This document shows, in pieces, positions 10,070 to 36,873 of a stretch of DNA of 44,013 nucleotides. Source of the DNA: Bacteroidales bacterium (GTDB taxonomy: Bacteria > Bacteroidota > Bacteroidia > Bacteroidales > UBA932). Position 1 is the stretch's first letter; every line of letters begins with the position of its first letter. Location of the stretch: assembly GCA_024401925.1 (NCBI GenBank), contig JAKSKD010000014.1:1-44013 (forward strand), written 5' to 3'. The position numbers were made by a program, and so were the translations under genes. The notes beneath the pieces are model-generated. The model had not been told where the DNA came from and made no database searches. It saw only the letters and a program-made list of their open reading frames with translations.

Positions 10070-11235
10070 TGGATGCATCCCGTTTCATAGCGAGAAAACT
10101 TCGTTTCAAAGGAAAGATAGCTATGGTTTCCGTAGCTATCTCTTCCTTTGTTATGATACTTGCCGTGAGTGTTTCGGCGGGATACAGACAGGAAATCAGG
10201 CGTGGGGTGTCCGCAGTTTCCGGTGATATACAATTGACATCATATACAAGAAATTACCTTACCGACGAAAATCCTATATCTTCCCATCCGTCATTCCTGG
10301 AAGACATAATGTCGGTGAAAGGTGTAAATAAAATCGAACCGGCAGTATATCGTGCGGGAATCATCAAGAACCGGGATGAGATACACGGGGTGGTGTTCAA
10401 GGGCATTCCTTCCTACTCCGATACTGTATCTCTTGGGGTAAGTATCCCTCAGAGGCTCTCAGACCTTATGGGACTTGAACCGGGATCGGATATGCTGACC
10501 TATTTTGTGGGGGAGAAAGTGAAAGCCCGCCGGTTCAGGGTCTCTTCCATTTATGAAGGAATACTTGATTCCGAACAGAACTTGACCGTCTATGCGTCAA
10601 TGAGTGACCTGCAGCGTTTGAATGAGTGGGATTCATGCCAGGTCTCTGCCATTGAAGTTACATTGGATGATGAATTCAGACAGGCGGCGATGATTGAAGC
10701 GAAAAACTCTGAAATTGGAACGCTTGCACTCCTCAATGCGGATGAAGAGGATGAACCGCTTGTAAGTACGTCTGTCGTTGACAACTACAGCCAGTTATTC
10801 GACTGGCTTAACCTGATAGACTCCAACGTCCTTCTGATTCTTGTCTTGATGACTGTAGTCGGAGGCTTCAATATGGTATCTGGCCTGCTGATACTTCTTT
10901 TCAGGAATATTTCGACAATCGGTATCCTGAAGTCGATGGGTATGGCGGACCGGGCAATAGGAAAATTGTTCCTCAGGGTATCATCCGACCTTGTCTTGAA
11001 GGGAATGGCTGCCGGAAATGTCCTTGCCCTGGCCTTCTGCCTGATTCAAGGCGCTACTCATTTCATAAAACTGAATCCGGAAAACTATTTCGTGTCTTAT
11101 GTGCCGGTAGCTTTGGATGTGCCGATGATTCTTATTGCGGACGTGATAGCATATGTCGCGATAATGCTGCTTCTTCTGCTGCCTTCTATGTTTATTTCAA
11201 AGGTTGATCCGGCTCGGACTGTCCGTTCTGCATAG
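10069..11235 (+). CDS. FtsX-like ABC transporter permease (LolC/LolE or MacB type)
   Basis: A 388-residue permease of the FtsX/MacB-PCD class. It has an N-terminal membrane helix (MVSVAISSFVMILAVSVSAGY), a large periplasmic domain of about 200 residues, and three C-terminal helices, the first within VLLILVLMTVVGGFNMVSGL. The following GILKSMGM motif is typical of LolC/E-type coupling helices. In Bacteroidota such permeases move lipoproteins or other substrates; no ATPase gene is adjacent, so its partner must be encoded elsewhere. The 3' end overlaps the convergent mltF-like gene by 44 bases. Confidence 0.87.
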   Translation: MDASRFIARKLRFKGKIAMVSVAISSFVMILAVSVSAGYRQEIRRGVSAVSGDIQLTSYTRNYLTDENPISSHPSFLEDIMSVKGVNKIEPAVYRAGIIKNRDEIHGVVFKGIPSYSDTVSLGVSIPQRLSDLMGLEPGSDMLTYFVGEKVKARRFRVSSIYEGILDSEQNLTVYASMSDLQRLNEWDSCQVSAIEVTLDDEFRQAAMIEAKNSEIGTLALLNADEEDEPLVSTSVVDNYSQLFDWLNLIDSNVLLILVLMTVVGGFNMVSGLLILLFRNISTIGILKSMGMADRAIGKLFLRVSSDLVLKGMAAGNVLALAFCLIQGATHFIKLNPENYFVSYVPVALDVPMILIADVIAYVAIMLLLLLPSMFISKVDPARTVRSA

Positions 11236-12259
11236 CTTCTTTGCGGTATATTCTGCTGAACGCCCAGTAATAGGAGTAAATCCGTGAGACAAAGAATTGA
11301 GTTTCTTTCCATTTGAATGTCTGCGTAGGCATTATCTCTTTAAGTTCCTGCCAGGTTCGTGCCGGAATTCCGAGAGAATCGGCGTAGCGGATGCATTTCA
11401 GAATGTTGCCTTCGCCCGCATTGTAGGCGGCAAGGGTAAAGCGTTTGAGATCGTCTGGTGTATCTGTATACTTACGGAAGATATTCTGCAGCCTTTCGAG
11501 GTGTGAGACTCCTCCTCTGATATTTTCCTCAGGGTCGAATATGTTGGTTACATTATATCTGTCCGCTGTCGTCGGGATAAGCTGCATCAGACCCTGGGCC
11601 CCCTTGCTTGAATGGGCGTTTATCCTGAATTGGGATTCTTGGTAGATTACTGCCGTGACGAGCCTCCAGTCCCAGCCCAGCTTTTCCGAGTTGTCGATTA
11701 TCAGGCTGTCATAAGGGCTGAGGATGCTTTTCTTTATGCCGGATTTAGCTGTTGCGAAAGGTTCGTACACGTTGTCTATGAACAGACCATGGAGCCTGGA
11801 GCACTCTTCGGAACCGTTGTAGGCTGAGACCCATTCGTCGATTGATTCTATTTCCTTCGGGTATTGCTCTGCTACAGCCCACCTGGTAAGGCTGTCCACC
11901 GGCCCGGATATAAGTATGCTGTCATCCGGGGAAAGACTTGAAACGGGAACAACGAGAATATCTATCAGACCGTTACGGAGCGAATCCGTCCAATTCTCAT
12001 TCTTTGGAGCGCGCAGGATTTCCATCGACAGACCACGGCTTTCCGCATATCGCTGGAGAAGTTCATAATTATATCCGCTGATCAGTCCGTCCGTGGTATC
12101 GTCATAATGCCCCAGAGCAATGGCGCAGCGTAACTCCCTGGTGGGGAAAACCGTGCCCACATGACGTCTCTCCATGAAGATATGAAGTGCAGCAATTCCC
12201 GCAATTGCAAGAGCAAGCACAACGCTTCCAAGAATTACTGACTTTTTACTTTTTTCCAT
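11192..12259 (-). CDS. MltF-like lytic transglycosylase (solute-binding domain plus SLT domain)
   Basis: Lytic transglycosylases cleave the MurNAc-GlcNAc bond of peptidoglycan and leave 1,6-anhydroMurNAc ends. The 355-residue protein has an N-terminal membrane helix (SVVLALAIAGIAALHIF). Next comes a periplasmic binding-protein-like domain, then a C-terminal SLT domain with the catalytic Glu in YQESQF and the conserved GAQGLMQL and AAYNAGEGN motifs. This order matches MltF. It is the last gene of a six-gene minus-strand operon, 3 bases after the porin gene, where it would release the sugars handled by the upstream kinase and uridylyltransferase. The 3' end overlaps the permease gene on the other strand. 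Confidence 0.9.
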   Translation of the reverse strand: MEKSKKSVILGSVVLALAIAGIAALHIFMERRHVGTVFPTRELRCAIALGHYDDTTDGLISGYNYELLQRYAESRGLSMEILRAPKNENWTDSLRNGLIDILVVPVSSLSPDDSILISGPVDSLTRWAVAEQYPKEIESIDEWVSAYNGSEECSRLHGLFIDNVYEPFATAKSGIKKSILSPYDSLIIDNSEKLGWDWRLVTAVIYQESQFRINAHSSKGAQGLMQLIPTTADRYNVTNIFDPEENIRGGVSHLERLQNIFRKYTDTPDDLKRFTLAAYNAGEGNILKCIRYADSLGIPARTWQELKEIMPTQTFKWKETQFFVSRIYSYYWAFSRIYRKEAMQNGQSEPDQPLK

Positions 12260-14956: not shown

Positions 14957-15709
14957 TTACAAAGTTACTGTTTTTTCGTGACAATCCACTATCCCTTCAG
15001 CAACAGATAAGGTTTCAGGCTTTCCTATGTCTATAAGTTTCAGTTTCTGGACTTCGATTCCATAGATGCTGTACTGTGCGGCATTTTTCAGATAAAAATC
15101 GATGATGGAGAATACTTCAGGCTCATTTTCCATAAGCGGGAACACCTTGTTGGAGATAAGATGTATGCCGCTGAATGCTTTCCAGGTACAAGTGTTGGGG
15201 TCCAAGTTCCTGAAAGGGCTTTTTATTTCCCCTGTCTTTGAATTCATCCATCCCTTGAGTTTCATCTCTTCGTCAAACAACAGGTAACGTGAGGATTCCC
15301 GGCTGCTGACAAGCAGCAATGCAAGAGAGCCGTCAGGCAGGTTGTGCGAACAGAATGAGGATATGTCCAGATTTGAAAGGATATCGACATTGTGCACGAG
15401 GAATGTATCTTCATTTTCAAGAAATCTGCGTGCTGCTTTGATACCCCCACCTGTTTCAAACGGGTGGTCCTGCTCTATCGAAAGGTCTATCCGGCATCCG
15501 AAATTGTCTTTCTCCTCCAGATGATTGACAATTTGGTCGGAAAAATGATGTGTGTTGATTACAAAGTCCTTGATTCCCGCGTCTTTCAGTTTCAGGATTA
15601 CCCGGTCCAGCATAGGCACGCCTCCGACGGGCACAAGAGCCTTGGGCATTGTGTCGGTCAGAGGACGCAGGCGTGTGCCGAGTCCCGCGGCGAAAATCAT
15701 TGCTTTCAT
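14957..15709 (-). CDS. MurU-like sugar-1-phosphate uridylyltransferase
   Basis: A nucleotidyltransferase of 250 residues. It has the N-terminal nucleotide-binding signature AAGLGTRLRPLTDTMPKAL, then VPVGGVPMLDRVI, NTHHFSDQI and the acidic VHNVDILS motif expected for metal binding. MurU makes UDP-MurNAc from MurNAc-1-phosphate in the anabolic recycling route described in Pseudomonas and others; the protein is close to MurU in size and motifs. It overlaps the AmgK-like kinase gene by 4 bases (ATGA), the same pairing as amgK-murU, which is the main reason for preferring MurU over a generic sugar nucleotidyltransferase. Substrate specificity is inferred. Confidence 0.8.
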   Translation of the reverse strand: MKAMIFAAGLGTRLRPLTDTMPKALVPVGGVPMLDRVILKLKDAGIKDFVINTHHFSDQIVNHLEEKDNFGCRIDLSIEQDHPFETGGGIKAARRFLENEDTFLVHNVDILSNLDISSFCSHNLPDGSLALLLVSSRESSRYLLFDEEMKLKGWMNSKTGEIKSPFRNLDPNTCTWKAFSGIHLISNKVFPLMENEPEVFSIIDFYLKNAAQYSIYGIEVQKLKLIDIGKPETLSVAEGIVDCHEKTVTL

Positions 15710-17064
15710 TCCGAAAGGGCTGCGTGTTTCAGGATTATCCGTGCTTCGGCAAACCGCTCTTTCAGATGTGCGGCAGTTTTCTCAGCACAATAGACAGAAC
15801 GATGTTGCCCCCCGGTACATCCGAAACTGATCTGGAGGTGGGTGAAACCGCGTTCCATATACGTTGCTACGTGATTGTCCACAAGGGCAAAAACATTCCC
15901 GAGATATTCCGCTACATTGCTTTGGGCCTCGAGAAAATCAATCACTTCTTTATCCCTTCCGCACAAATGCTTGTACTCCGGATATCTTCCCGGGTTGTGG
16001 ATGCTCCTGCAGTCGAATACATATCCTCCTCCGTTGCCGGATTCGTCGACCGGCACGCCGGCGCGGTATGAAAAACTTTGTACAAGCACTTCCAATATGC
16101 CTTTTTCCTCTGTGGCATCGGATTTTTCGCGGCATAATTCAGCCAGAATCTCACAGAGATACGGATACTCTCCGAACGGAGTCTCAAGAAGTTCCCTGAC
16201 ATTGTCCAGAGCGAAAGGAATGCTTGATATGAAGTAAGGTTTCTTCTCGAAGCGCCCCCTGAACCCATACGCTCCCAGTACCTGAAGGGTACGGAAGAGA
16301 ACGAATATCCTCAGTTTGCGGTTGAAGAACTTGCGGTCTATATTTTCATACGCACAGAGTGCGTTGTAGTAGGTGTCGACCAGCTTTTCCTTAAGTGCGG
16401 ACGGATATCTGGCGCTTGCCTGCCATACGAATGAGGCAACATCATAATATACAGGGCCCCTGCGTCCTCCCTGAAAATCAATGAACCACGGCTCTCCGTT
16501 CTTTACCATTACGTTCCTTGATTGGAAGTCCCTGTACATAAAGGTATTGCCAATATCGTCCATAAGATCGTGCTTCAGAGTGTCGAAGTCGTCCTGAAGC
16601 CTGATTTCGTTGAAATTGATTCCGGAAGTCTTGAGGAAGCAGTACTTGAAATAGTTCAAGTCAAAGTCCACCATCCTTTCGTTGAACTCCCTGTCGGGAA
16701 AACATATCCCGTAGTCCAGGTCCTGAGCTCCGATAAACTGTATTTTGGGTAATTGTGTAATTGTCTTGCAGAGCATTTCCTGCTCAGCTTCGCTGTAAGT
16801 CCCACTTGCTCTGCCGCTGCTGACGAACTGGTAGAGGCTCTCGTCTCCGAGATCCTCCTGCTCATAACTCATCAGGTCCCCGCTGACTTCATAGATTTCA
16901 GGTACGTTGATCCCCTTGTTCCTGAAGTGTCGGGCCAGGGTGATGAAGGCGCGGTTCTCAAGGGCATCGGTCCCGGCGACCTTTATCCGGCTCCGGTCTC
17001 CATCCTGAATCCTGAAATATTTCCGCGAACTTCCGGATGCACGTAATTCCTTGATACTTTCCAT
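15706..17064 (-). CDS. AmgK-like sugar kinase fused to RapZ C-terminal domain
   Basis: A 452-residue two-domain protein. Residues 1-310 are an aminoglycoside-phosphotransferase-type kinase of the AmgK group, with a glycine-rich start (RASGSSRKYFRI), catalytic loop FMYRDFQSRNVM (Asp179, Asn184) and the metal-binding WFIDFQGG (Asp196). Residues 325-448 match the C-terminal domain of RapZ (FDCRSIHNPGRYPEYKHLCG and FGCTGGQHRSVYCAEKTA). In E. coli that domain binds glucosamine-6-phosphate and controls glmS through RNA. The N-terminal P-loop domain of RapZ is absent. AmgK phosphorylates MurNAc/GlcNAc at C1, feeding the adjacent MurU. A sugar-phosphate-sensing kinase is a reasonable inference. Confidence 0.88.
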   Translation of the reverse strand: MESIKELRASGSSRKYFRIQDGDRSRIKVAGTDALENRAFITLARHFRNKGINVPEIYEVSGDLMSYEQEDLGDESLYQFVSSGRASGTYSEAEQEMLCKTITQLPKIQFIGAQDLDYGICFPDREFNERMVDFDLNYFKYCFLKTSGINFNEIRLQDDFDTLKHDLMDDIGNTFMYRDFQSRNVMVKNGEPWFIDFQGGRRGPVYYDVASFVWQASARYPSALKEKLVDTYYNALCAYENIDRKFFNRKLRIFVLFRTLQVLGAYGFRGRFEKKPYFISSIPFALDNVRELLETPFGEYPYLCEILAELCREKSDATEEKGILEVLVQSFSYRAGVPVDESGNGGGYVFDCRSIHNPGRYPEYKHLCGRDKEVIDFLEAQSNVAEYLGNVFALVDNHVATYMERGFTHLQISFGCTGGQHRSVYCAEKTAAHLKERFAEARIILKHAALSE

Positions 17065-27965: not shown

Positions 27966-28739
27966 ATGGATATCGACCAGCTTACAAAATTTATTTCCGA
28001 CATCATTCTGACAAGGGACGAAGTGACCTTGCCGGGGCTTGGAAGTTTTGTGGCTGAGGAAGTTGCGGCATCTTTCTCCGACAAGGGATATACCATCAAC
28101 CCTCCGTACCGCCGGCTTTCTTTCCGTCCGTACCAGGGAAAAGATAATTCGCTCGCAGAGGCATTTGCAAAGTCTGAAAATATCAGTGTAGAGGATGCCT
28201 TAGCGCAACTGAAGGACTTCCTTGGGAAGTTGAAAGAGGTGCTGAAACAGCGCAAGTCTATCATTTTCCCTGGCCTTGGACACCTTAGGGCCACGAAGGA
28301 GAATAATTTCTTCTTTGTGTGTGATGAGGAGATTATGATTTATCCCGAAGGCTTCGGCCTCCATCCTGTTTCCCTGAAATCACGTGTCCACGAACCTGTC
28401 GAACTTGAAAAGCAGGCTCAGTCCGAAGCTATTTCCCGGCTGCAGAAGCAGGAGGCCGTTCAAGAACAGCCTAAAACGGAACAACCGGACCAGTCTTTGA
28501 TGGAGGCAACTGCAATGCAGAAAGAAGAAACGTCTGAAACCGCGCTATCTGTGGAAAGACAGGATGAAGCTGCTGTGGAAAGTCCGAAAAAGAAGCATAC
28601 TTTCCTGAAAGTGCTTCTAACAGTAGTCATTCTTGCCGTAATTGCCGTAGCCGCCCTGTTACTGCTGGCCCGTTTCGCCCCGGAACTTCTGGATAAGATA
28701 CTTTATTCGGAAGAGGAATTGAAGATTTTATATTATTAG
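27966..28739 (+). CDS. HU-type (CCDC81-like) domain protein with one membrane helix
   Basis: A 257-residue protein. The first 140 residues hold two small HU-like domains of the bacterial CCDC81 type: SDIILTRDEVTLPGLGSFVA with INPPYRRLSFRPY, then QRKSIIFPGLGHLRAT. A charged Gln/Glu-rich linker follows (about 145-210), then one membrane helix (FLKVLLTVVILAVIAVAALL) and a short tail. In Bacteroidota such proteins usually carry a C-terminal SPOR peptidoglycan-binding domain; here only about 20 residues follow the helix. The domain faces the cytoplasm, so it could tie DNA or protein to the membrane. It is the first gene of the operon that includes ampG and namZ. Confidence 0.8.
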   Translation: MDIDQLTKFISDIILTRDEVTLPGLGSFVAEEVAASFSDKGYTINPPYRRLSFRPYQGKDNSLAEAFAKSENISVEDALAQLKDFLGKLKEVLKQRKSIIFPGLGHLRATKENNFFFVCDEEIMIYPEGFGLHPVSLKSRVHEPVELEKQAQSEAISRLQKQEAVQEQPKTEQPDQSLMEATAMQKEETSETALSVERQDEAAVESPKKKHTFLKVLLTVVILAVIAVAALLLLARFAPELLDKILYSEEELKILYY

Positions 28740-28742
28740 ACA

Positions 28743-29333
28743 ATGCTGGAACTCTTGTATCCATCCGGCCATGCGCCTGTAATCCCTTCTCCGAGATCAT
28801 ATCTGGCAGACCAGAATATTGTAGCAGATGATGAGATTCTCCCAGTTGTGGAGCCTTCCGGTGTCGTCATAGGCCAGTCTTCACGCCAATATGTACATAC
28901 AGTGGGAAATCTGATGCATCCTGTGGCGCATATGCACATCATTGACCGTGACGGCAGCCTGTATTTGCAAAAACGTGCCGCCTCGAAATCCCTTTATCCC
29001 GGGATGTGGGACATTGCAGTGGGGGGACACGTCAGTTACGGAGAGAATATTGAAGAGACTCTTGCCAGAGAAGCTTCGGAGGAGCTGAATTTCCGTGATT
29101 TCAACCCTGTCGAGATAGGAACTTTCAAATACGAATCCGGCAATGATGTCGAACTTGTTTGCCTGTTCGCAACGGTTGGCCATTTCGACATCAATCCTAT
29201 CAGTCTTGAGGTGGATGATGGCAGGTATTGGACCAGAAAGGAAATAGAAGAAAATTTGGGCAAGTCCGTATTTACTCCTACCTTTGAATATGAGTACCGG
29301 CAGTATTATGGAATGCTGGAGGCTCTTCTGTAG
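28743..29333 (+). CDS. NUDIX hydrolase (YfcD/isopentenyl-diphosphate isomerase-like)
   Basis: A 196-residue Nudix protein. The box reads GHVSYGENIEETLAREASEE, matching Gx5Ex7REUxEE, with LNF in place of the final xGU. The stretch VAHMHIIDRDGSLYLQKRA before it and the YPGMWDIAVGGH block match the YfcD group, related to IPP isomerases. The first 45 residues are not recognised. It starts 3 bases after the HU-like gene and ends 3 bases before the DUF4922-SpoIID gene. The substrate is unknown; a sugar-nucleotide role would fit the neighbours but is speculative. Confidence 0.86.
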   Translation: MLELLYPSGHAPVIPSPRSYLADQNIVADDEILPVVEPSGVVIGQSSRQYVHTVGNLMHPVAHMHIIDRDGSLYLQKRAASKSLYPGMWDIAVGGHVSYGENIEETLAREASEELNFRDFNPVEIGTFKYESGNDVELVCLFATVGHFDINPISLEVDDGRYWTRKEIEENLGKSVFTPTFEYEYRQYYGMLEALL

Positions 29334-29336
29334 GAT

Positions 29337-31439
29337 ATGAAAGAGAACCGACTCTCAAAGTTCATCAATGACCAGTTGTCTGTCTGGCCTCTGGCGTCTG
29401 CCAATTTCAGGGCGCTAAAATCCGCTGAGGTCAAGACATTGGAAGTGAACGGACTTCAGGCGTACATCCAGCACAATCCTGAACGGATCAAATCCACGAC
29501 GGCTGAAATAGACCAGGAGACACTTGCATCCCGACCGTGCTTCCTTTGCGCGGAGAACCGTCCTCCGGAGCAGTTCCACGTGAAGTTCGAAGGGAGGAAG
29601 GGCAGGAAATACAATATCCAACTGAATCCTTATCCGATATTCCCGGCACATCTGGTGATTGCCAGCGAGGAACATACTCCGCAGACGATATGGCGCAGGT
29701 ACGCGGATATGATGGACCTGGCACAGAAATATGCTGGCTACACGGTTTTCTACAACGGACCGTTTTCAGGGGCTTCCGCTCCGGACCATATGCATTTTCA
29801 GGCTTGCCCGAGCGGACTTATGCCGCTGGAACGGTATGTCGATGATTTTTTTGAAAGCGGGGATGATCCGGCTTTTGAGTATCTGGCGGATGTTCGTGAG
29901 GCGGTCTGCTATCATTGCAAGAAATTCTCACGCGGAATCCTTGCCCTAAAGGCGAAGACCCCGAAATCCATAACCAAGCTTTTCTATAGAATACTTGATG
30001 CCGCGCCGGTGATGCCGGGAGAGGAGGAACCACGCTTCAATATGTTTGTGTGGGCCAAGAACAATGAGATAAGGTCCCTGATAGTCCTCCGCTCGGAAAT
30101 CAGGTCTCACCATTACTTCCTGGAGGCCGGTGACGCAGACCATCTGACGGTGAGCCCCGGCTGTGCCGATGTTTGCGGCTTTTTCGTCGCCCCTCACGAG
30201 GAGGATTTCTTGAAAGCGGATTCCCGTCTGCTTGGTGAGATGATGTCGGAGGTGACGCTGTCGGAGGAAGAGGAGGAGAAGGTCCTCTGGAAACTCACTC
30301 GCAAGCAGAGGAAGATTGAGGTCGGAATCATGTCCGGCAATGAGATACATTTTGAGATTATTTCGGACGGGGCAGGCCCGCAGAAAGTCAGTTTCCGCGA
30401 TGGCCGGATTGATTATAACGGAGTCCTTTATGATGAGCTATTTTTCGACGCAATGACCCTTTCATCCGTCTTTGCGGAGCCTTCCTTCATACTAAAGGAT
30501 GTGACGATAGGTGTCGATTTCCACTGGCAGAGGCTCCGTGACCTGAAATATGCGGGCTCGCTTAAATTCATTGTGGAGAATGGAAGGATTACCGCCATAA
30601 ATGTGGTTGGACTGGAGGATTATCTCCTTAGCGTCATTTCTTCCGAGATGAAGGCCACCGCCGACATCGAATTTCTGAAGGCTCACGCCATCATATCCCG
30701 TTCGTGGGTCCTGCGCAATCTGGGTACACACGAGCATTTTGATGTGTGCGCCGATGACCATTGCCAGCGTTACCAGGGACTAGGTATGGCGGTAGGCCGG
30801 AATGTGCGGAATGCGATAGACGAAACCTGGGGACAGGTGCTGGTCTGTGACGGTCAGATGTGCGACGCCAGATATTCCAAGTGTTGCGGGGGCCGTACGG
30901 AGGTCTTCAGTACCTGCTGGGAGGGGGAAGATCTGCCGTATCTCCAGTCTTTTCCGGACAGCGACGGAAGCGGAGACCCATTCTGCGACACTTCTGATGA
31001 GGCTGTGCTTTCCAAGGTCCTCAATGATTACGACCTTGAGACAAAGGATTTTTTCAAATGGGAAGTGAGGATGTCGCGCAGTGACCTGTCCGAGCTTTTG
31101 CAACGCAGGACAGGCATCGATTTCGGAACGATAAGGTCTCTCGAAGCCTTGGAAAGAGGGCCTTCGGGAAGGATATACAGTTTAAGAATTACCGGGGATA
31201 AATGCTCGGAGGTGATTGGCAAGGAACTGGCGATTCGCCACGCCCTTTCAGAATCGCATCTGAAAAGTTCCGCCTTTGAAATCAGCTGGGATGGCGATAC
31301 ACTGGTCCTTGAGGGAAAAGGATGGGGACACGGTGTCGGCCTGTGCCAGATAGGTGCGGCAGTTATGGCGCACAAGGGGTATGATGCCGGGCAGATACTT
31401 CTGCACTATTATCCTGGAACAAAATTGGAAAGAATATGA
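29337..31439 (+). CDS. DUF4922 (HIT-like) and SpoIID/LytB fusion protein
   Basis: A 700-residue two-part protein without a signal peptide. Residues 1-320 match DUF4922, related to the GalT/GDP-sugar phosphorylase branch of the HIT superfamily. This part has CFLC (68-71), SGASAPDHMHFQ with the His-x-His-x-Gln catalytic motif at 151-155, and HLVIASEEH. Residues 325-700 match SpoIID/LytB, a lytic transglycosylase acting on denuded glycan strands: GLEDYLLSVISSEM with catalytic Glu437, DVCADDHCQRYQG with the zinc cysteines 471 and 476, KCCGGRTE, and GWGHGVGLCQIGA. Both active sites look intact. It overlaps ampG by 4 bases. Confidence 0.87.
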   Translation: MKENRLSKFINDQLSVWPLASANFRALKSAEVKTLEVNGLQAYIQHNPERIKSTTAEIDQETLASRPCFLCAENRPPEQFHVKFEGRKGRKYNIQLNPYPIFPAHLVIASEEHTPQTIWRRYADMMDLAQKYAGYTVFYNGPFSGASAPDHMHFQACPSGLMPLERYVDDFFESGDDPAFEYLADVREAVCYHCKKFSRGILALKAKTPKSITKLFYRILDAAPVMPGEEEPRFNMFVWAKNNEIRSLIVLRSEIRSHHYFLEAGDADHLTVSPGCADVCGFFVAPHEEDFLKADSRLLGEMMSEVTLSEEEEEKVLWKLTRKQRKIEVGIMSGNEIHFEIISDGAGPQKVSFRDGRIDYNGVLYDELFFDAMTLSSVFAEPSFILKDVTIGVDFHWQRLRDLKYAGSLKFIVENGRITAINVVGLEDYLLSVISSEMKATADIEFLKAHAIISRSWVLRNLGTHEHFDVCADDHCQRYQGLGMAVGRNVRNAIDETWGQVLVCDGQMCDARYSKCCGGRTEVFSTCWEGEDLPYLQSFPDSDGSGDPFCDTSDEAVLSKVLNDYDLETKDFFKWEVRMSRSDLSELLQRRTGIDFGTIRSLEALERGPSGRIYSLRITGDKCSEVIGKELAIRHALSESHLKSSAFEISWDGDTLVLEGKGWGHGVGLCQIGAAVMAHKGYDAGQILLHYYPGTKLERI

Positions 31440-32740
31440 GCAGAAAAAGTCCGTGGATGTGGATTCCTACCCTGTATTTTGCGGAAGGACTCCCTTATTT
31501 CATTGTCAATGTCATTTCTGTAACAATGTTCAAGCGTCTCGGAATGTCCAATGCCGACCTTGCCCTGTACACTAGTCTCCTGTATCTTCCCTGGACGATA
31601 AAGCCGCTCTGGAGCCCGTTTGTGGACATTATTCGAAGTAAGCGCTGGTGGATTCTCCTGATGCAGGTAATTATGGCCGCATCCATCTTTGCTCTGGCAC
31701 TTGTCCTGCCGCATCCTTCCGCTGAGCAGATTGCAGGCGGGGGAATCGGAGTCTCGCCTTTTATTCTGACACTTATTATATTCTATATCACTGCATTTGC
31801 TTCCGCGACCCACGACATAGCTGCCGACGGATATTATATGTTGGAACTGGACAGGCACAGGCAGTCCCTTTTCGTGGGCGTGAGGAATACGTTCTATCGT
31901 ATTGGATCCGTGTTCGGACAGGGAGTTATTGTGGTTATCGCCGGTGCTCTGGAGACTCGTCTCGGAGACATCCCCATGGCCTGGACAATCACTCTTGTGA
32001 TAAGCGCCCTGATTTTTTCTGCCATCACAATCTATCATATCTTCGTCCTGCCACATCCTAAGGATGATGCCGAAAAACAGAACAGAAGTGCAGGCGATAT
32101 CTTCAAGGAGTTCGGGCGTACATTTGCGACATTCTTCCGCAAGAAAGGTGTTTGGATGGCAATAATATTTATGCTGCTCTACCGTCTCCCGGAGGCCTTC
32201 TCCGTAAAGATGCTGACTCCGTTCATGCTAGACCCTGCCGGGAAGGGCGGGCTTGGACTGTCCACGGCACAGTCCGGTCTCGTCTATGGCACTGTGGGCG
32301 TGATTGCACTTCTTGCTGGGGGAATCCTCGGAGGGCTCGCGGCAGGGAAGTGGGGATTGAAGAAATGCCTGTGGCCTATGGCCCTCAGCCTGGCCCTGCC
32401 TTGCTCGGTCTATCTTTATATGGCGCTGGCGCAGCCTGAACATATCTGGATCATCTACGCCTGCGTGGCATTCGACCAGTTTGGATACGGTTTCGGATTC
32501 ACGGCATACACCTTGTATATGATGTATTTCGCGGACGGAGAGTACAAGACGGCGCATTATGCCCTCTGCACGGCTTTCATGGCTTTGAGCATGATGGTGC
32601 CGGGAATGTTTGCCGGAATGCTGCAGGAGTCTCTCGGCTATACGGACTTCTTCTGGATGGTGATGGTATGCTGCCTTGTGACTGTGGCCGTCACATTTAT
32701 TGTGAGGAAAAAGATTGATGCATCATATGGGAAGAACTAG
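31436..32740 (+). CDS. AmpG-like muropeptide permease (MFS)
   Basis: A 434-residue membrane protein with about 12 hydrophobic helices. The N-terminus WIPTLYFAEGLPYFIVNVIS and then LGMSNADLALYTSLLYLPWTIKPLWSPFVD (shown in part) match the AmpG/SLC33 signature, where the motif around LPWTIKPLWSP is the strongest sign. ATHDIAADGYYM in helix 4 and the GVRNTFYRIG loop agree. AmpG imports anhydro-muropeptides (GlcNAc-anhMurNAc peptides) into the cytoplasm. It overlaps the upstream SpoIID fusion gene (ATGA) and the following namZ, which supports a cell-wall recycling role. Confidence 0.88.
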   Translation: MSRKSPWMWIPTLYFAEGLPYFIVNVISVTMFKRLGMSNADLALYTSLLYLPWTIKPLWSPFVDIIRSKRWWILLMQVIMAASIFALALVLPHPSAEQIAGGGIGVSPFILTLIIFYITAFASATHDIAADGYYMLELDRHRQSLFVGVRNTFYRIGSVFGQGVIVVIAGALETRLGDIPMAWTITLVISALIFSAITIYHIFVLPHPKDDAEKQNRSAGDIFKEFGRTFATFFRKKGVWMAIIFMLLYRLPEAFSVKMLTPFMLDPAGKGGLGLSTAQSGLVYGTVGVIALLAGGILGGLAAGKWGLKKCLWPMALSLALPCSVYLYMALAQPEHIWIIYACVAFDQFGYGFGFTAYTLYMMYFADGEYKTAHYALCTAFMALSMMVPGMFAGMLQESLGYTDFFWMVMVCCLVTVAVTFIVRKKIDASYGKN

Positions 32741-33977
32741 AATCGTACTTCTGCTGGTAGCACTTGTGCTGGGATTCCAGACACTTGCGTATGCCCAGCC
32801 GGCCGTCAAAACCGGCATAGAAGTTCTCAGGGACAACGGTTTCAAGGGCCTTGAAGGCAAGAAAGTAGGGCTCCTGACCAACCCTTCCGGGGTTGACAGG
32901 AATCTCGTTTCTACTATAGATATCCTTAATGAGGCTGTTGATCTAGTCGCCATTTTCGCCCCTGAGCATGGCGCCCGCGGGGATGTCTATGCCGGGGACA
33001 AAGTGTCCGATTCACGGGATTCCCGCACCGGCCTTCCTGTCTATTCCGTCTATGGGGCCACAAGGAAACCTACTCCGGAGATGCTGGAGGGTCTGGACAT
33101 CGTAGTCTATGATATTCAGGATGTAGGTTCCCGCTCGTACACTTTCATCAGTTCACTCGGACTTATGATGAGGGCCTGCGCCGAGCAGGGGATAGAGGTG
33201 ATGGTGCTCGACAGACCGAATCCTCTCGGAGGCACGAAGGTCGAAGGAGCTTATCCGGTGGACGGATTCTATTCATTTGTGGGTGAGTTCAGGATTCCGT
33301 ATGTGTACGGTCTGACTGTCGGTGAGCTGGCGCAGCTCATCAATGAGGAGGGCCTGAACAGGGGCCAGCAGGGGAAAGAAGCCCCTTTGAAGTGCAAGCT
33401 TACCGTCATACCGATGGAGGGATGGACCAGGGAAATGCTGTTCAATGACACCGGCCTTCCGTGGGTGCTTCCGTCGCCCAACATCCCATATCCGCAGAGC
33501 GCAATCAATTATCCTTGCGCCGGTCTTGCCGGGGAGTTTTCCAACTATCTCAACATCGGTATCGGCTACACCCTTCCTTTCGGGACGTTCGCGGCCGAAT
33601 GGATAGATGCCGACAAACTGAAAGACAGATTGGACAGTTACGGGATAAAAGGGATGGAGTTCAGGACCATTCATTACAAGCCTATCGCCGGCAGTTCGTC
33701 GGGCAAGCTGATACACGGCGTGCAATATTTTATTACCGATTATGATGCCGCATACCTGACATTGACGCAATTCTATGTGATGCAGGCCGTGCACGAACTC
33801 TATCCATCCGTCAATCCTTTCGGAACGGGACGCAATGAGATGTTCGACAAGGTGACGGGCTCCGATTATGTTCGCACCCGATTCGGGGCCTCATACAAGG
33901 TCCGCGACATAATCCAGTATTGGAACAAGGATGTTGAGGATTTCAAGACCCTCTCGGCAAAGTATTATCTATACTAA
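32718..33977 (+). CDS. NamZ-like exo-beta-N-acetylmuramidase (DUF1343)
   Basis: DUF1343 proteins include NamZ, which removes MurNAc from the non-reducing ends of peptidoglycan fragments. The 419-residue protein has a signal peptide (IVLLLVALVLGFQTLAYAQ) and conserved blocks KVGLLTNPSGVDR, FAPEHGARGD, YDIQDVGSRSYTFI, VLDRPNPLGG and SPNIPYPQSA. It is therefore probably periplasmic, upstream of AmpG import. The ATG at 32718 is preferred because a GAGGAAA site precedes it; 32727 is possible. It overlaps ampG by 23 bases and its 3' end overlaps asnA on the other strand by 9. Confidence 0.9.
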   Translation: MHHMGRTRIVLLLVALVLGFQTLAYAQPAVKTGIEVLRDNGFKGLEGKKVGLLTNPSGVDRNLVSTIDILNEAVDLVAIFAPEHGARGDVYAGDKVSDSRDSRTGLPVYSVYGATRKPTPEMLEGLDIVVYDIQDVGSRSYTFISSLGLMMRACAEQGIEVMVLDRPNPLGGTKVEGAYPVDGFYSFVGEFRIPYVYGLTVGELAQLINEEGLNRGQQGKEAPLKCKLTVIPMEGWTREMLFNDTGLPWVLPSPNIPYPQSAINYPCAGLAGEFSNYLNIGIGYTLPFGTFAAEWIDADKLKDRLDSYGIKGMEFRTIHYKPIAGSSSGKLIHGVQYFITDYDAAYLTLTQFYVMQAVHELYPSVNPFGTGRNEMFDKVTGSDYVRTRFGASYKVRDIIQYWNKDVEDFKTLSAKYYLY

Positions 33978-34979
33978 TTTTATTCCGGCTTCCCTGCAGG
34001 CTTCCCTCATATCTTCCGGCCAGATGCTACTCTGTATCTCGCCGATATGGGCTTTTCTGAGCAGGAACATACAGAGTCTGGACTGACCTATTCCTCCGCC
34101 GATTGTGTGCGGAAGTTCGCCGGCAAGAAGTTTCTTGTGGTAGTAGAGGTCTGCCTTGTATTCCTGGGCGCGTTCGCGCAGCTGCCTCATCATAGATTCG
34201 GCATTCACTCTGATACCCATACTTGACACTTCGAACGCTCTGTCCAGTACTGAATTCCAGAGGAGGATGTCGCCGTTAAGGTCCCAGTCGTCATAGTCGG
34301 CGGCTCTTCCGTCGTGCGGCTCACCGTTTGAAAGCTTTCCTCCAATGCCAATGATAAAAACGGCCTTGTGCTCCTTTGTGATGGCGTTTTCTCTCTCTTT
34401 TGCATTCATTTCCGGATAGCGTTGCAGAAGTTCTTCCGAATCGATGAAGAAAATATCATCCGGAAGTTCCGGCCTGATCTGAGGGAATTCCACATAAAGC
34501 TTGTTTTCCGTGACTTTTATTGCCTCATATATTCTGCGTACGGTTTTCTTCAGGAATTCTATGTTGCGGTCCTTTTCGGAAATGACCTTTTCCCAGTCCC
34601 ACTGGTCCACATATATTGAGTGGATGTTGTCCAAATCTTCGTCCGGGCGCAACGCATTCATATCGGTATAGATGCCCCTGCCTTCCTCAAGCTTCATCTC
34701 CGCGAGCTTCAGCCTCTTCCATTTTGCGAGAGAGTGAACTACCTCTGCCTTCTGCTCGCCCATATCCTTGATAGGGAAGCGTACTGGCCTCTCTATGCTG
34801 TTCAAATCGTCATTGATTCCGGTCCCGGAGAGCACCACCATCGGAGCTGTCACTCTGAGTAGTGCCAGCTGCGCCGAAAGATTGCTCTGAAACATATCCT
34901 TTACGGCTTTTATCGCTTTTTCGGTATTTTCTTCGCTACCGAGCAGATTGGTGTAGTTATTTGGCAGATATAGTCCCAT
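33969..34979 (-). CDS. asnA: Aspartate-ammonia ligase (ammonia-dependent asparagine synthetase A)
   Basis: Makes asparagine from aspartate, ammonia and ATP. The 336-residue enzyme has the AsnA pattern: an N-terminal QSNLSAQLALLRVTAP, the GTGINDDLNSIERPV block, IYVDQWDWEKVI, the EIRVNAES-like GIRVNAESM, and the ATP-binding GGGIGQSRLCMFLL typical of class II synthetase folds. Length matches. It follows murI with a 23-base overlap. Together with ansA at 681-1730 it would make a futile cycle unless the two are regulated separately. Confidence 0.95.
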   Translation of the reverse strand: MGLYLPNNYTNLLGSEENTEKAIKAVKDMFQSNLSAQLALLRVTAPMVVLSGTGINDDLNSIERPVRFPIKDMGEQKAEVVHSLAKWKRLKLAEMKLEEGRGIYTDMNALRPDEDLDNIHSIYVDQWDWEKVISEKDRNIEFLKKTVRRIYEAIKVTENKLYVEFPQIRPELPDDIFFIDSEELLQRYPEMNAKERENAITKEHKAVFIIGIGGKLSNGEPHDGRAADYDDWDLNGDILLWNSVLDRAFEVSSMGIRVNAESMMRQLRERAQEYKADLYYHKKLLAGELPHTIGGGIGQSRLCMFLLRKAHIGEIQSSIWPEDMREACREAGIKLV

Positions 34980-35736
34980 ATAGCTTGTGTAAAACTGTTC
35001 CGTCTCCGGATGAATGTAGTATGATTTTCCCTTCCTTCCCGTGCCTGATTCCTTCAGCCTCCATAACCTTGGCCAGCTGTCTTACAACGGCCGGTGCCGG
35101 GTCTATCAGCTCGATTTCGTAATCGGTATGATGTTTCGTACGGAAATCCTCAATTATTTTGAGCATTGTGGCTTCGAGGAAAGGGTAGTGGGTGCATCCG
35201 AGCACTATCCTGTCTGCCTTTTCCTCAAGAATCGGAAGCAGAACCTGCCCGACAACCTCGCGCGAATGCGGGCTTTCCAAGTCTCCGTTTTCGACAAGTT
35301 CCACGAATCCCTGTCCTACTCTTTCAACAATCCGGGTATCGTTTCCGAAGCGGCCTTTCGTATCCTTGTACTTGTCGGCTGCGAGTGTGCCGGTTGTGGC
35401 GAGGACGCCTATGACGCCCGTCGAGGTGTTCTCCGCGGCTAGTTTCACGGCCGGCTCCATGCCTATGAACTTGATGGGGAATTCAGCACGGAGGGTGCTG
35501 ATGGCGGCGGCGGTGGCAGTGTTGCAGGCCACAACAATGATGTCGCAACCCTCACCGATAAGGAAACGGGAGATTTCCCGGGCTCTGTCGATGATGAAAT
35601 TGCGGTCTCTGGTGCCGTAGGGACAGTTTGCGTTGTCGGCGAAATAGATGCAGTCATCCCCGGGGAGGACTTTCCTGATCTCCCGCAGGACGGACAGCCC
35701 GCCGACCCCCGAATCAAATATTCCGATTTTTGCCAT
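34957..35736 (-). CDS. murI: Glutamate racemase
   Basis: Makes D-glutamate for the peptidoglycan stem peptide. The 259-residue protein has IGIFDSGVGGLSVL, YFADNANCPYGTR, VACNTATAAA with the first catalytic Cys and VLGCTHYPFL with the second, so it should be active. The start MAKIGIFDSG at 35736 fits homology; the frame stays open to 35838, which would cross the prfB promoter and start. It is divergent from prfB and co-transcribed with asnA. Confidence 0.95.
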   Translation of the reverse strand: MAKIGIFDSGVGGLSVLREIRKVLPGDDCIYFADNANCPYGTRDRNFIIDRAREISRFLIGEGCDIIVVACNTATAAAISTLRAEFPIKFIGMEPAVKLAAENTSTGVIGVLATTGTLAADKYKDTKGRFGNDTRIVERVGQGFVELVENGDLESPHSREVVGQVLLPILEEKADRIVLGCTHYPFLEATMLKIIEDFRTKHHTDYEIELIDPAPAVVRQLAKVMEAEGIRHGKEGKIILHSSGDGTVLHKLYGTISAK

Positions 35737-35787
35737 AGATATCTGATGCGAATTTAACAAATATTGAAAGAATATGCGTAAAATTCG

Positions 35788-35795
35788 TAAATTTG
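35788..35795 (+). promoter_or_regulatory. -7 promoter box for prfB
   Basis: TAAATTTG fits TAnnTTTG and ends 7 bases before the prfB ATG at 35803. An ATTG at 35763-35766 is near the -33 distance. The predicted leader is only a few bases. Confidence 0.6.
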
Positions 35796-35802
35796 CCTTG
35801 AT

Positions 35803-36873
35803 ATGGTGATTCAAGAACAAATCAGAGACCTGAAACAAAGGGTGGAGACGCTGTGCCGCTGTCTCAGGATTGAGGAACGCAGGGAGGAAGTGTCCTCATT
35901 GCAGGCGCAGACCGAAGCCCCGGATTTCTGGGACGACCCCAAGGCTGCGGAAGCATTTATGAAGAAAATGAACGGTGTAAAGTGGTGGGTAGCAGCTTTC
36001 GACACCGTGCGCAGCAGCGTTGACGACCTTGATGTCCTTCTTGAACTTGCTCCTGAATCCGAAGAACTGGACCAGGCGTTTGCTGAGGCTACTGCGGCAG
36101 TGGAGAATCTGGAGATGAAGAATATGCTCGGAGCTGAAGGTGACAATCTGGGCGCAGTCCTGACTATCAATTCCGGTGCCGGTGGCACTGAGGCGAATGA
36201 CTGGAGCGCGATGCTGATGAGGATGTATATGCGTTGGGGCGAAAGGAACGGCTACCGAACGAGCGTCAGCGAACAGGTGGAGGGAGATGAAACCGGAATA
36301 AAATCTACAACAATAGAATTCGAAGGGGATTACGCCTATGGCTATCTGAAGGCCGAATCCGGAGTCCACAGACTTGTGAGGATATCTCCGTTCAATGCCC
36401 AGGGCAAGCGTCAGACCACATTCAGCTCCGTGTTCGTATATCCTCTGGTTGACGACAGCATCAATATCGAGATAAAGGATTCGGACCTCCAGTGGGACAC
36501 TTTCCGAAGTGGTGGTCACGGCGGGCAGAATGTGAACAAGGTGGAGACCGGCGTGCGCGTGAAGCATATCCCGACCGGGATCGTCGTGGAGAATACGGAA
36601 GGACGTACTCAGATAGGTAACAAGGAAAATGCTCTCCGTATCCTGAAATCCCGCCTGTATGACCTTGAGTTGAAGAAAAGACAGGAGAAACAGGCCGAAC
36701 TTGAGGGTCAGAAACTCAAGATTGAATGGGGCTCGCAGATACGTTCCTATGTTCTCCATCCGTACAAGATGGTCAAGGACCTTAGGACAGGGTTTGAGAC
36801 TGCAGACACCCAGGGAGTCCTTGACGGCGACCTGAATGCTTTTATGAAAGAATTTTTAATGAACAATAAATAA
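35803..36873 (+). CDS. prfB: Peptide chain release factor 2
   Basis: Terminates translation at UGA and UAA. The 356-residue protein has the RF2-type stop-codon motif in [14 protein letters not shown] (SPF tripeptide) and the GGQ motif in [11 protein letters not shown], with the flanking [10 protein letters not shown] block. It is uninterrupted: at the point where most prfB genes have the programmed frameshift (CTT TGA C), this gene reads CTC AGG at 35863-35868, so no frameshift is needed. The start at 35803 gives normal length. It heads a plus-strand unit with the fumarase, AsmA-like and serB genes. Confidence 0.95.

Follow-up and report, generated by a model that had tools for sequence, protein, structure and literature searches.

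An earlier note on the stretch of DNA analysed here, 44,013 nucleotides from a Bacteroidales bacterium (hereafter the window), had read one of its genes as a DUF4922 domain fused to a SpoIID domain without an export signal. SpoIID-type enzymes are known as wall cutters that work outside the cytoplasmic membrane. The note proposed a cytoplasmic enzyme that cuts imported muropeptides and handles the sugar product, which would be a new combination.

Two domains in one reading frame

The gene is an open reading frame of 700 residues, found where it had been reported, and both of its domains score above their Pfam or NCBIfam cut-offs (Table 1). The N-terminal half matches Pfam DUF4922 (PF16269) over residues 9-157, with 189.9 bits against a gathering cut-off of 23.6 (2.9e-56), and runs on past the Pfam region to about residue 320. 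The His-x-His-x-Gln site that the earlier note saw in this half is H151/H153/Q155. H151 and H153 are found in all 31 fused proteins and in 47/47 stand-alone DUF4922 proteins, and Q155 in 31/31 and 46/47; the pair C68-x-x-C71, which we take to have a putative zinc role of the GalT type, is likewise complete in the fused proteins, and in the stand-alone ones C68 is kept in 47/47 and C71 in 45/47. Taken together, C68, C71, H113, H151, H153 and Q155 are each invariant among the 31 fused proteins, and each is kept by 45 to 47 of the 47 stand-alone ones, in counts that leave out two stand-alone DUF4922 ORFs of more than 400 amino acids.

A profile built from 21 DUF4922 sequences matches the yeast-type Ap4A phosphorylase 2 of known structure (4i5t, E 7.9e-6) over the His-x-His-x-Gln region. 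This sequence relation, together with the motif itself, places DUF4922 in the HIT/GalT superfamily. The likeness to particular members is faint, however: the Ap4A phosphorylase model (Ap4A_phos_N, PF19327) gives 20.8 bits, below its gathering cut-off of 23.1, and the UDP-glucose--hexose-1-phosphate uridylyltransferase model (TIGR01239) gives 21.3 bits, below its cut-off of 650.15. We therefore reject the reading of this half as a plain Ap4A phosphorylase or GalT.

The C-terminal half matches the NCBIfam model SpoIID_LytB (TIGR02669) over residues 419-699 of the fusion, with 191.2 bits against a cut-off of 83.3 (3.3e-56), and Pfam SpoIID (PF08486) over residues 415-503, with 83.2 bits against 23. 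It also aligns, by phmmer, with three solved SpoIID chains (4rwr, 5i1t and 5txu). The equivalog for stage II sporulation protein D (TIGR02870) is reached with 140.7 bits, below its cut-off of 234.75, which rules out the sporulation SpoIID itself.

The SpoIID of C. difficile is a proven lytic transglycosylase, whose catalytic E101 and zinc residues H134, C140, H145 and C146 are named in the passages on this enzyme in PMC6221140. When the pairings are counted by eye along the phmmer alignment with 5txu, E437 of the fusion falls on E101, and H465, C471, H475 and C476 fall on H134, C140, H145 and C146; the catalytic Glu437 and the zinc cysteines described in the earlier note are thus where they were said to be. 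E437 is kept in 29/29 fused, 50/51 stand-alone and 20/20 exported SpoIIDs, the 51st stand-alone entry being a gene fragment without the E437 region. Every fused (29/29) and every stand-alone (51/51) protein has the four zinc ligands; in the exported Bacteroidota paralogues H465, C471, H475 and C476 are found in 0, 1, 0 and 3 of 20, respectively. (Two fused ORFs whose SpoIID part is short were left out of these residue counts.) The loss of key residues in homologues that would have indicated an inactive protein was not seen, and since the catalytic and ligand residues are invariant in the relatives we also reject the idea of a decayed enzyme.

In its match over residues 419-699, its catalytic Glu and its four zinc ligands, the fusion is therefore like the SpoIID of C. 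difficile. It differs from this SpoIID/LytB family in having no export signal, in sitting behind DUF4922, and in residues specific to its clade, D510, R512 and K515 among others. These three are invariant in the cytosolic SpoIID clade and missing from 20/20 exported SpoIIDs, and ordinary lytic transglycosylase chemistry is for this reason not to be assumed.

Table 1. Features of the fusion gene and of related genes in the window.
Feature	Position in window	Strand	Basis
MurU-like nucleotidyltransferase	14957-15709	-	NF045761 1e-36, below cut-off
AmgK-like kinase joined to RapZ C-terminal domain	15706-17064	-	NF045759 3.9e-15, below cut-off
NUDIX hydrolase, directly upstream of fusion	28743..29333	+	conserved in fused clade
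DUF4922-SpoIID fusion, 700 aa, without export signal	29337..31439	+	ORF, profile matches, N-terminus scan
Pfam DUF4922 region, HIT/GalT-type	29361..29807	+	residues 9-157; genome search gives same bases
C68-x-x-C71 conserved pair	29538..29549	+	conservation in relatives
H151-x-H153-x-Q155 active-site motif	29787..29801	+	conserved in fused and stand-alone DUF4922
SpoIID/LytB half, residues 321-700	30297..31436	+	TIGR02669; alignment with 4rwr, 5i1t, 5txu
E437, catalytic Glu equivalent	30645..30647	+	on E101 of C. difficile SpoIID 5txu
H465, C471, H475, C476, zinc-ligand equivalents	30729..30764	+	alignment with 5txu
AmpG-like MFS transporter	31436..32740	+	TIGR00901 181 bits, below 350 cut-off
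NamZ exo-beta-N-acetylmuramidase, signal-peptide-like N-terminus	32715..33977	+	Pfam NamZ_N 1.8e-82, NamZ_C 1.1e-33

Export signals and the origin of the fusion

The export to the wall that goes with the SpoIID/LytB family has no counterpart here, the N-terminus of the fusion being unlike a signal. Its maximum mean Kyte-Doolittle hydropathy over 12 residues is 0.73 within the first 60 residues, and no signal peptide or transmembrane segment was found by this simple scan and by reading the N-terminus, as distinct from a signal-peptide program. The NUDIX gene ends three bases 5' of the fusion, and an in-frame TAG lies two codons 5' of the fusion's ATG.

We then compared the fusion with its relatives, namely 30 fused relatives from the loci retrieved (a count that omits the window's own copies), 51 distinct stand-alone orthologous SpoIIDs, and an exported set of 20 places chosen from weaker SpoIID matches. 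By the hydropathy threshold an export signal is present in 0/31 fused proteins, in 1/51 stand-alone SpoIIDs and in 16/21 rows of the exported set, where the 21st row is a misfiled fragment of a cytosolic gene. The sole stand-alone SpoIID above the threshold (L024) is an ORF begun too early, 5' of the usual start. Of the four true exported rows below it, three look signal-like by eye and one probably has a wrong ORF start. N-termini were also read by eye for 40 proteins, of which L071 has unread bases at its N-terminus. Moreover, DUF4922 directly precedes SpoIID in 19 stand-alone loci, and in 10 of these the two ORFs overlap by four bases, which leaves no space for a signal peptide. A hidden or late signal peptide in the fusion is thus ruled out by the in-frame 5' stop and by the absence of such signals across the family, so that the claim of a protein without a signal peptide is borne out. 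One stand-alone SpoIID gene (G188; L142 7590-8915) reads as two ORF pieces.

The 30 fused relatives also rule out a unique or chimeric gene, whether by chance or by a fault of assembly. The claim of a new combination is less exact, for the pairing is not confined to this protein: DUF4922 and SpoIID are separate, adjoining genes in many Bacteroidota, and the lytB gene of T. forsythia adjoins ampG in a co-transcribed operon, as far as the operon is described in PMC5388701.

In a maximum-likelihood tree, built quickly from 101 rows with the window entered twice (SH-aLRT support only, midpoint root), the exported SpoIIDs separate from the cytosolic clade with support 99. The fused proteins make up one side of a branch inside the cytosolic clade, with an SH-aLRT of 100. 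This placement points to a single origin: the fusion appears to have arisen once, from an older pair of adjoining genes.

Partners of the fusion within and across genomes

The AmpG-like and NamZ genes lie directly 3' of the fusion, in the manner of a murein salvage operon, and the ATG of the AmpG-like gene overlaps the fusion's stop codon. Among the fused relatives with room to tell, AmpG is directly downstream in 25/28. Around the 51 stand-alone SpoIIDs, DUF4922 is directly upstream in 19, AmpG directly downstream in 19, and both are present in 18; for about 32/51, neither was seen adjoining in the DNA examined. The module also recurs next to genes for NamZ, a GT2 glycosyltransferase (36 loci), BadF-type kinases, GNAT proteins and GH3/beta-lactamase proteins; in 20 loci from other families, SpoIID adjoins a GT4 glycosyltransferase. 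GT4 is often the next gene where a cytosolic SpoIID lies away from DUF4922 and AmpG, as in several of L116-L143 (e.g. L080:4818-5930).

Several other genes border this region of the window. An HU-CCDC81-type protein at 27966-28739 (+) has a hydrophobic stretch near its C-terminus, and its gene is a conserved neighbour in the fused clade, ahead of the NUDIX gene and the fusion. The opposite strand next to the operon encodes glutamate racemase (34957-35838, -), which belongs to murein precursor synthesis, and the asparagine synthetase AsnA (33969-34979, -).

The GT2 gene takes several positions. The window genome has it on another contig (C22:83-1351), and some fused-clade members (L045, L053, L057, L066) have it near the fusion. 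In two loci GT2 is itself fused to DUF4922 (L072:1126-3525 and L077:3683-6163), a second fusion within the module. In a locus from the window's taxonomic order (L115) the run GT2-DUF4922-SpoIID-AmpG-NamZ continues with genes for a NagX/HGSNAT-like membrane protein, a BadF kinase and MurQ. A Fibrobacterota MAG (Chitinispirillaceae; L074) has GT2-DUF4922-SpoIID, with AmpG not in view.

Such linkage has a counterpart in which genomes carry the genes at all. The number of genomes drawn varied slightly between searches (296, 292, 289, 286, 281 and 267), and we set N at 286; the genome sets were read by hand among the matches listed, with genomes without a match only partly listed, and the SpoIID set was hand-picked as the high-identity matches. 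We left out weak DUF4922 matches (G027, G136, G160), weak AmpG matches (G004, G018, G172, G196), and genomes falling outside one of the draws: G294, which has SpoIID and DUF4922 (later draws), G285, which has AmpG (AnmK draw), and G267 (MurQ draw).

DUF4922 was counted in 40 genomes and the module-type SpoIID in 40 (including G294); 39 genomes share the two, and one (G223) has DUF4922 only. GT2 orthologues occur in 39 genomes at E <1e-125, the best match in any other genome being 1.5e-12. For DUF4922 and GT2 the table of both, first only, second only and neither is 39/1/0/246 (N=286), with G156 the one DUF4922-only genome. The three genes co-occur even when unlinked; in G184, for example, they are far apart on one contig. 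GT2 is thus a third constant partner, beyond those of the earlier note, and GT2-DUF4922-SpoIID is a module spread across Bacteroidota, of which the window's fusion is one clade's form. For DUF4922 and AmpG the table is 40/0/47/199. AmpG is present in 40/40 DUF4922 genomes and, without the module, in another 47.

A probable role in murein salvage, and its alternatives

We think it probable that the fusion is a cytosolic two-domain enzyme of murein salvage, with its SpoIID half acting on imported saccharides and its DUF4922 half on a sugar of the same pathway. The cytosolic place, which the earlier note had suggested, is supported by the family-wide absence of export signals and by the adjoining AmpG importer, and the handling of imported muropeptides fits the AmpG/NamZ linkage and the co-occurrence. 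In this pathway AmpG would bring murein saccharides into the cytosol, those of T. forsythia being GlcNAc-anhMurNAc and GlcNAc-MurNAc. Using its catalytic Glu and a loop stiffened by zinc, the SpoIID half would act on a glycosidic bond of the MurNAc type or on a 1,6-anhydro bond of these saccharides; the DUF4922 half would catalyse phosphate or nucleotidyl transfer with a sugar of this pathway as its substrate; and GT2, encoded elsewhere in the window genome, would be the third constant partner. The order of these steps is one that we infer, and the fusion may couple two consecutive ones. The presence of DUF4922 and GT2 suggests that the pathway involves a sugar phosphate and a nucleotide sugar. 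Several facts count against salvage: the roughly 32/51 stand-alone SpoIIDs away from AmpG and DUF4922, many with an adjoining GT4, which could mean a role in making glycan and not in breaking it; the 47 AmpG genomes without the module, and L074, with the module and no AmpG in view; the score of the window's AmpG-like protein below the TIGR00901 cut-off; and the clade's D510, R512 and K515, which the exported SpoIIDs lack.

In T. forsythia a similar set of genes has been described. The account of its operon Tanf_08345-08385 (gtf, gtf, lytB, ampG, ybbC, murTKQ), which is co-transcribed, places lytB directly before ampG and ybbC, of the NamZ family, as in the SpoIID-AmpG-NamZ order here (PMC5388701). 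It has a gene run like that of L115, which includes two genes not named in that account, and unlike the window's fusion its SpoIID gene is separate. From the gene order we infer that the second 'gtf' is DUF4922. According to the passages of PMC7670621 on this organism, T. forsythia AmpG takes up GlcNAc-anhMurNAc and GlcNAc-MurNAc, GlcNAc-anhMurNAc supports growth of the cells and anhMurNAc does so poorly, the genome has no predicted AnmK orthologue, and the authors leave open how the imported fragments are processed. In the open-licence PMC literature we found no publication on a cytosolic DUF4922/SpoIID enzyme.

The distribution of AnmK bears on what the module might do. AnmK is the anhydro-MurNAc kinase, which opens anhydro-MurNAc, and the action of a lytic transglycosylase on a MurNAc bond produces a 1,6-anhydro ring. 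AnmK is found in 196/281 genomes. It is present in 46/46 searched AmpG genomes without the module versus 17/40 with it (Fisher 1.9e-10), and so is missing from 23/40 module genomes, the window's genome among them. Because related genomes are not independent, we repeated the contrast by family: 8/9 families with the module have an AmpG genome lacking AnmK, versus 0/10 families without it (p 1.2e-4), with family f15 on both sides. The contrast is much smaller for MurQ, found in 31/39 module versus 44/46 non-module genomes (p 0.04).

If the module opened the anhydro ring, one would expect AnmK to be lost only alongside the module, as is observed among the AmpG genomes. We put forward, tentatively and as a rather doubtful extension, an AnmK-independent route in which opening of the 1,6-anhydro ring falls to the SpoIID half, while DUF4922 and GT2 deal with the sugar phosphate and nucleotide sugar of that cycle. 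On chemical reasoning, the ring could be opened by transglycosylase chemistry run in reverse or by its hydrolytic form, with an acceptor sugar or water. AnmK and the module would be alike in serving cells in which AmpG imports murein saccharides. The persistence of AnmK in 17 module genomes means that the two are not simply interchangeable. In the window genome, where one SpoIID was found, searches for AnmK, MurQ and a BadF kinase found none, absences that are provisional in a genome 89% complete. There the opened MurNAc might pass to two enzymes, AmgK-like and MurU-like, whose genes are found 11 kb upstream within the window. Their genes overlap, and the pair is possibly a salvage path from MurNAc to UDP-MurNAc with a built-in amino-sugar sensor. 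Near this pair, at 11192-12259 (-), is a protein with an MltF-like lytic transglycosylase domain.

A plainer account stands short of an even chance, and is a serious one: the protein may be an ordinary cytosolic lytic transglycosylase or muramidase that merely trims imported oligomers, the anti-correlation with AnmK having some other cause. The match of E437 and the zinc ligands to a proven lytic transglycosylase fits this account, as does AnmK in the 17 module genomes that keep it, and the chlamydial SpoIID is described as a transglycosylase on murein and a muramidase on peptide-free glycan (PMC6635528, in the passages on its activity). Disaccharides, however, are given as the main products in T. 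forsythia cell extracts and in the ampG mutant (PMC7670621, in its passages on these products), and the disaccharide GlcNAc-MurNAc contains no internal MurNAc-GlcNAc bond that could be cut. The D510, R512 and K515 of the clade, unlike the residues of exported SpoIIDs, also count against mere trimming.

It is improbable, in our judgement, that the module instead makes or edits a glycan, with GT2 or GT4 building a saccharide, DUF4922 supplying or recovering the nucleotide sugar, SpoIID trimming the product, and the link to AmpG being indirect. GT2 is as constant a partner as DUF4922 (39/40 genomes), is fused to it in L072 and L077, and has chondroitin synthase as its best solved relative, and the 20 loci with GT4 beside SpoIID point the same way. 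Yet AmpG accompanies DUF4922 in every one of its 40 genomes, NamZ and BadF-type sugar kinases recur next to the module, and the SpoIIDs of known activity act on murein glycan in the accounts of PMC6635528 and PMC6221140. Export of the SpoIID half by some unknown route, with its activity in the periplasm, we regard as scarcely credible, for although the other SpoIIDs of published activity are exported in those same accounts (PMC6635528, PMC6221140), here the domain is the C-terminal part of a fusion, behind a domain of cytosolic type, with no signal-like stretch in 31/31 fused proteins and a stop codon upstream in the window.

Returning to murein salvage, the gene neighbours and relatives suggest that imported wall fragments are recycled, possibly by a previously unidentified step. 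The module becomes a named candidate for the way in which T. forsythia, with no predicted AnmK, uses GlcNAc-anhMurNAc and, poorly, anhMurNAc, and for the processing of the fragments that its AmpG imports (PMC7670621, as that report describes them). If true, a conserved SpoIID clade that stays in the cytosol next to an importer of muropeptides would give SpoIID chemistry a new site, and perhaps a new direction.
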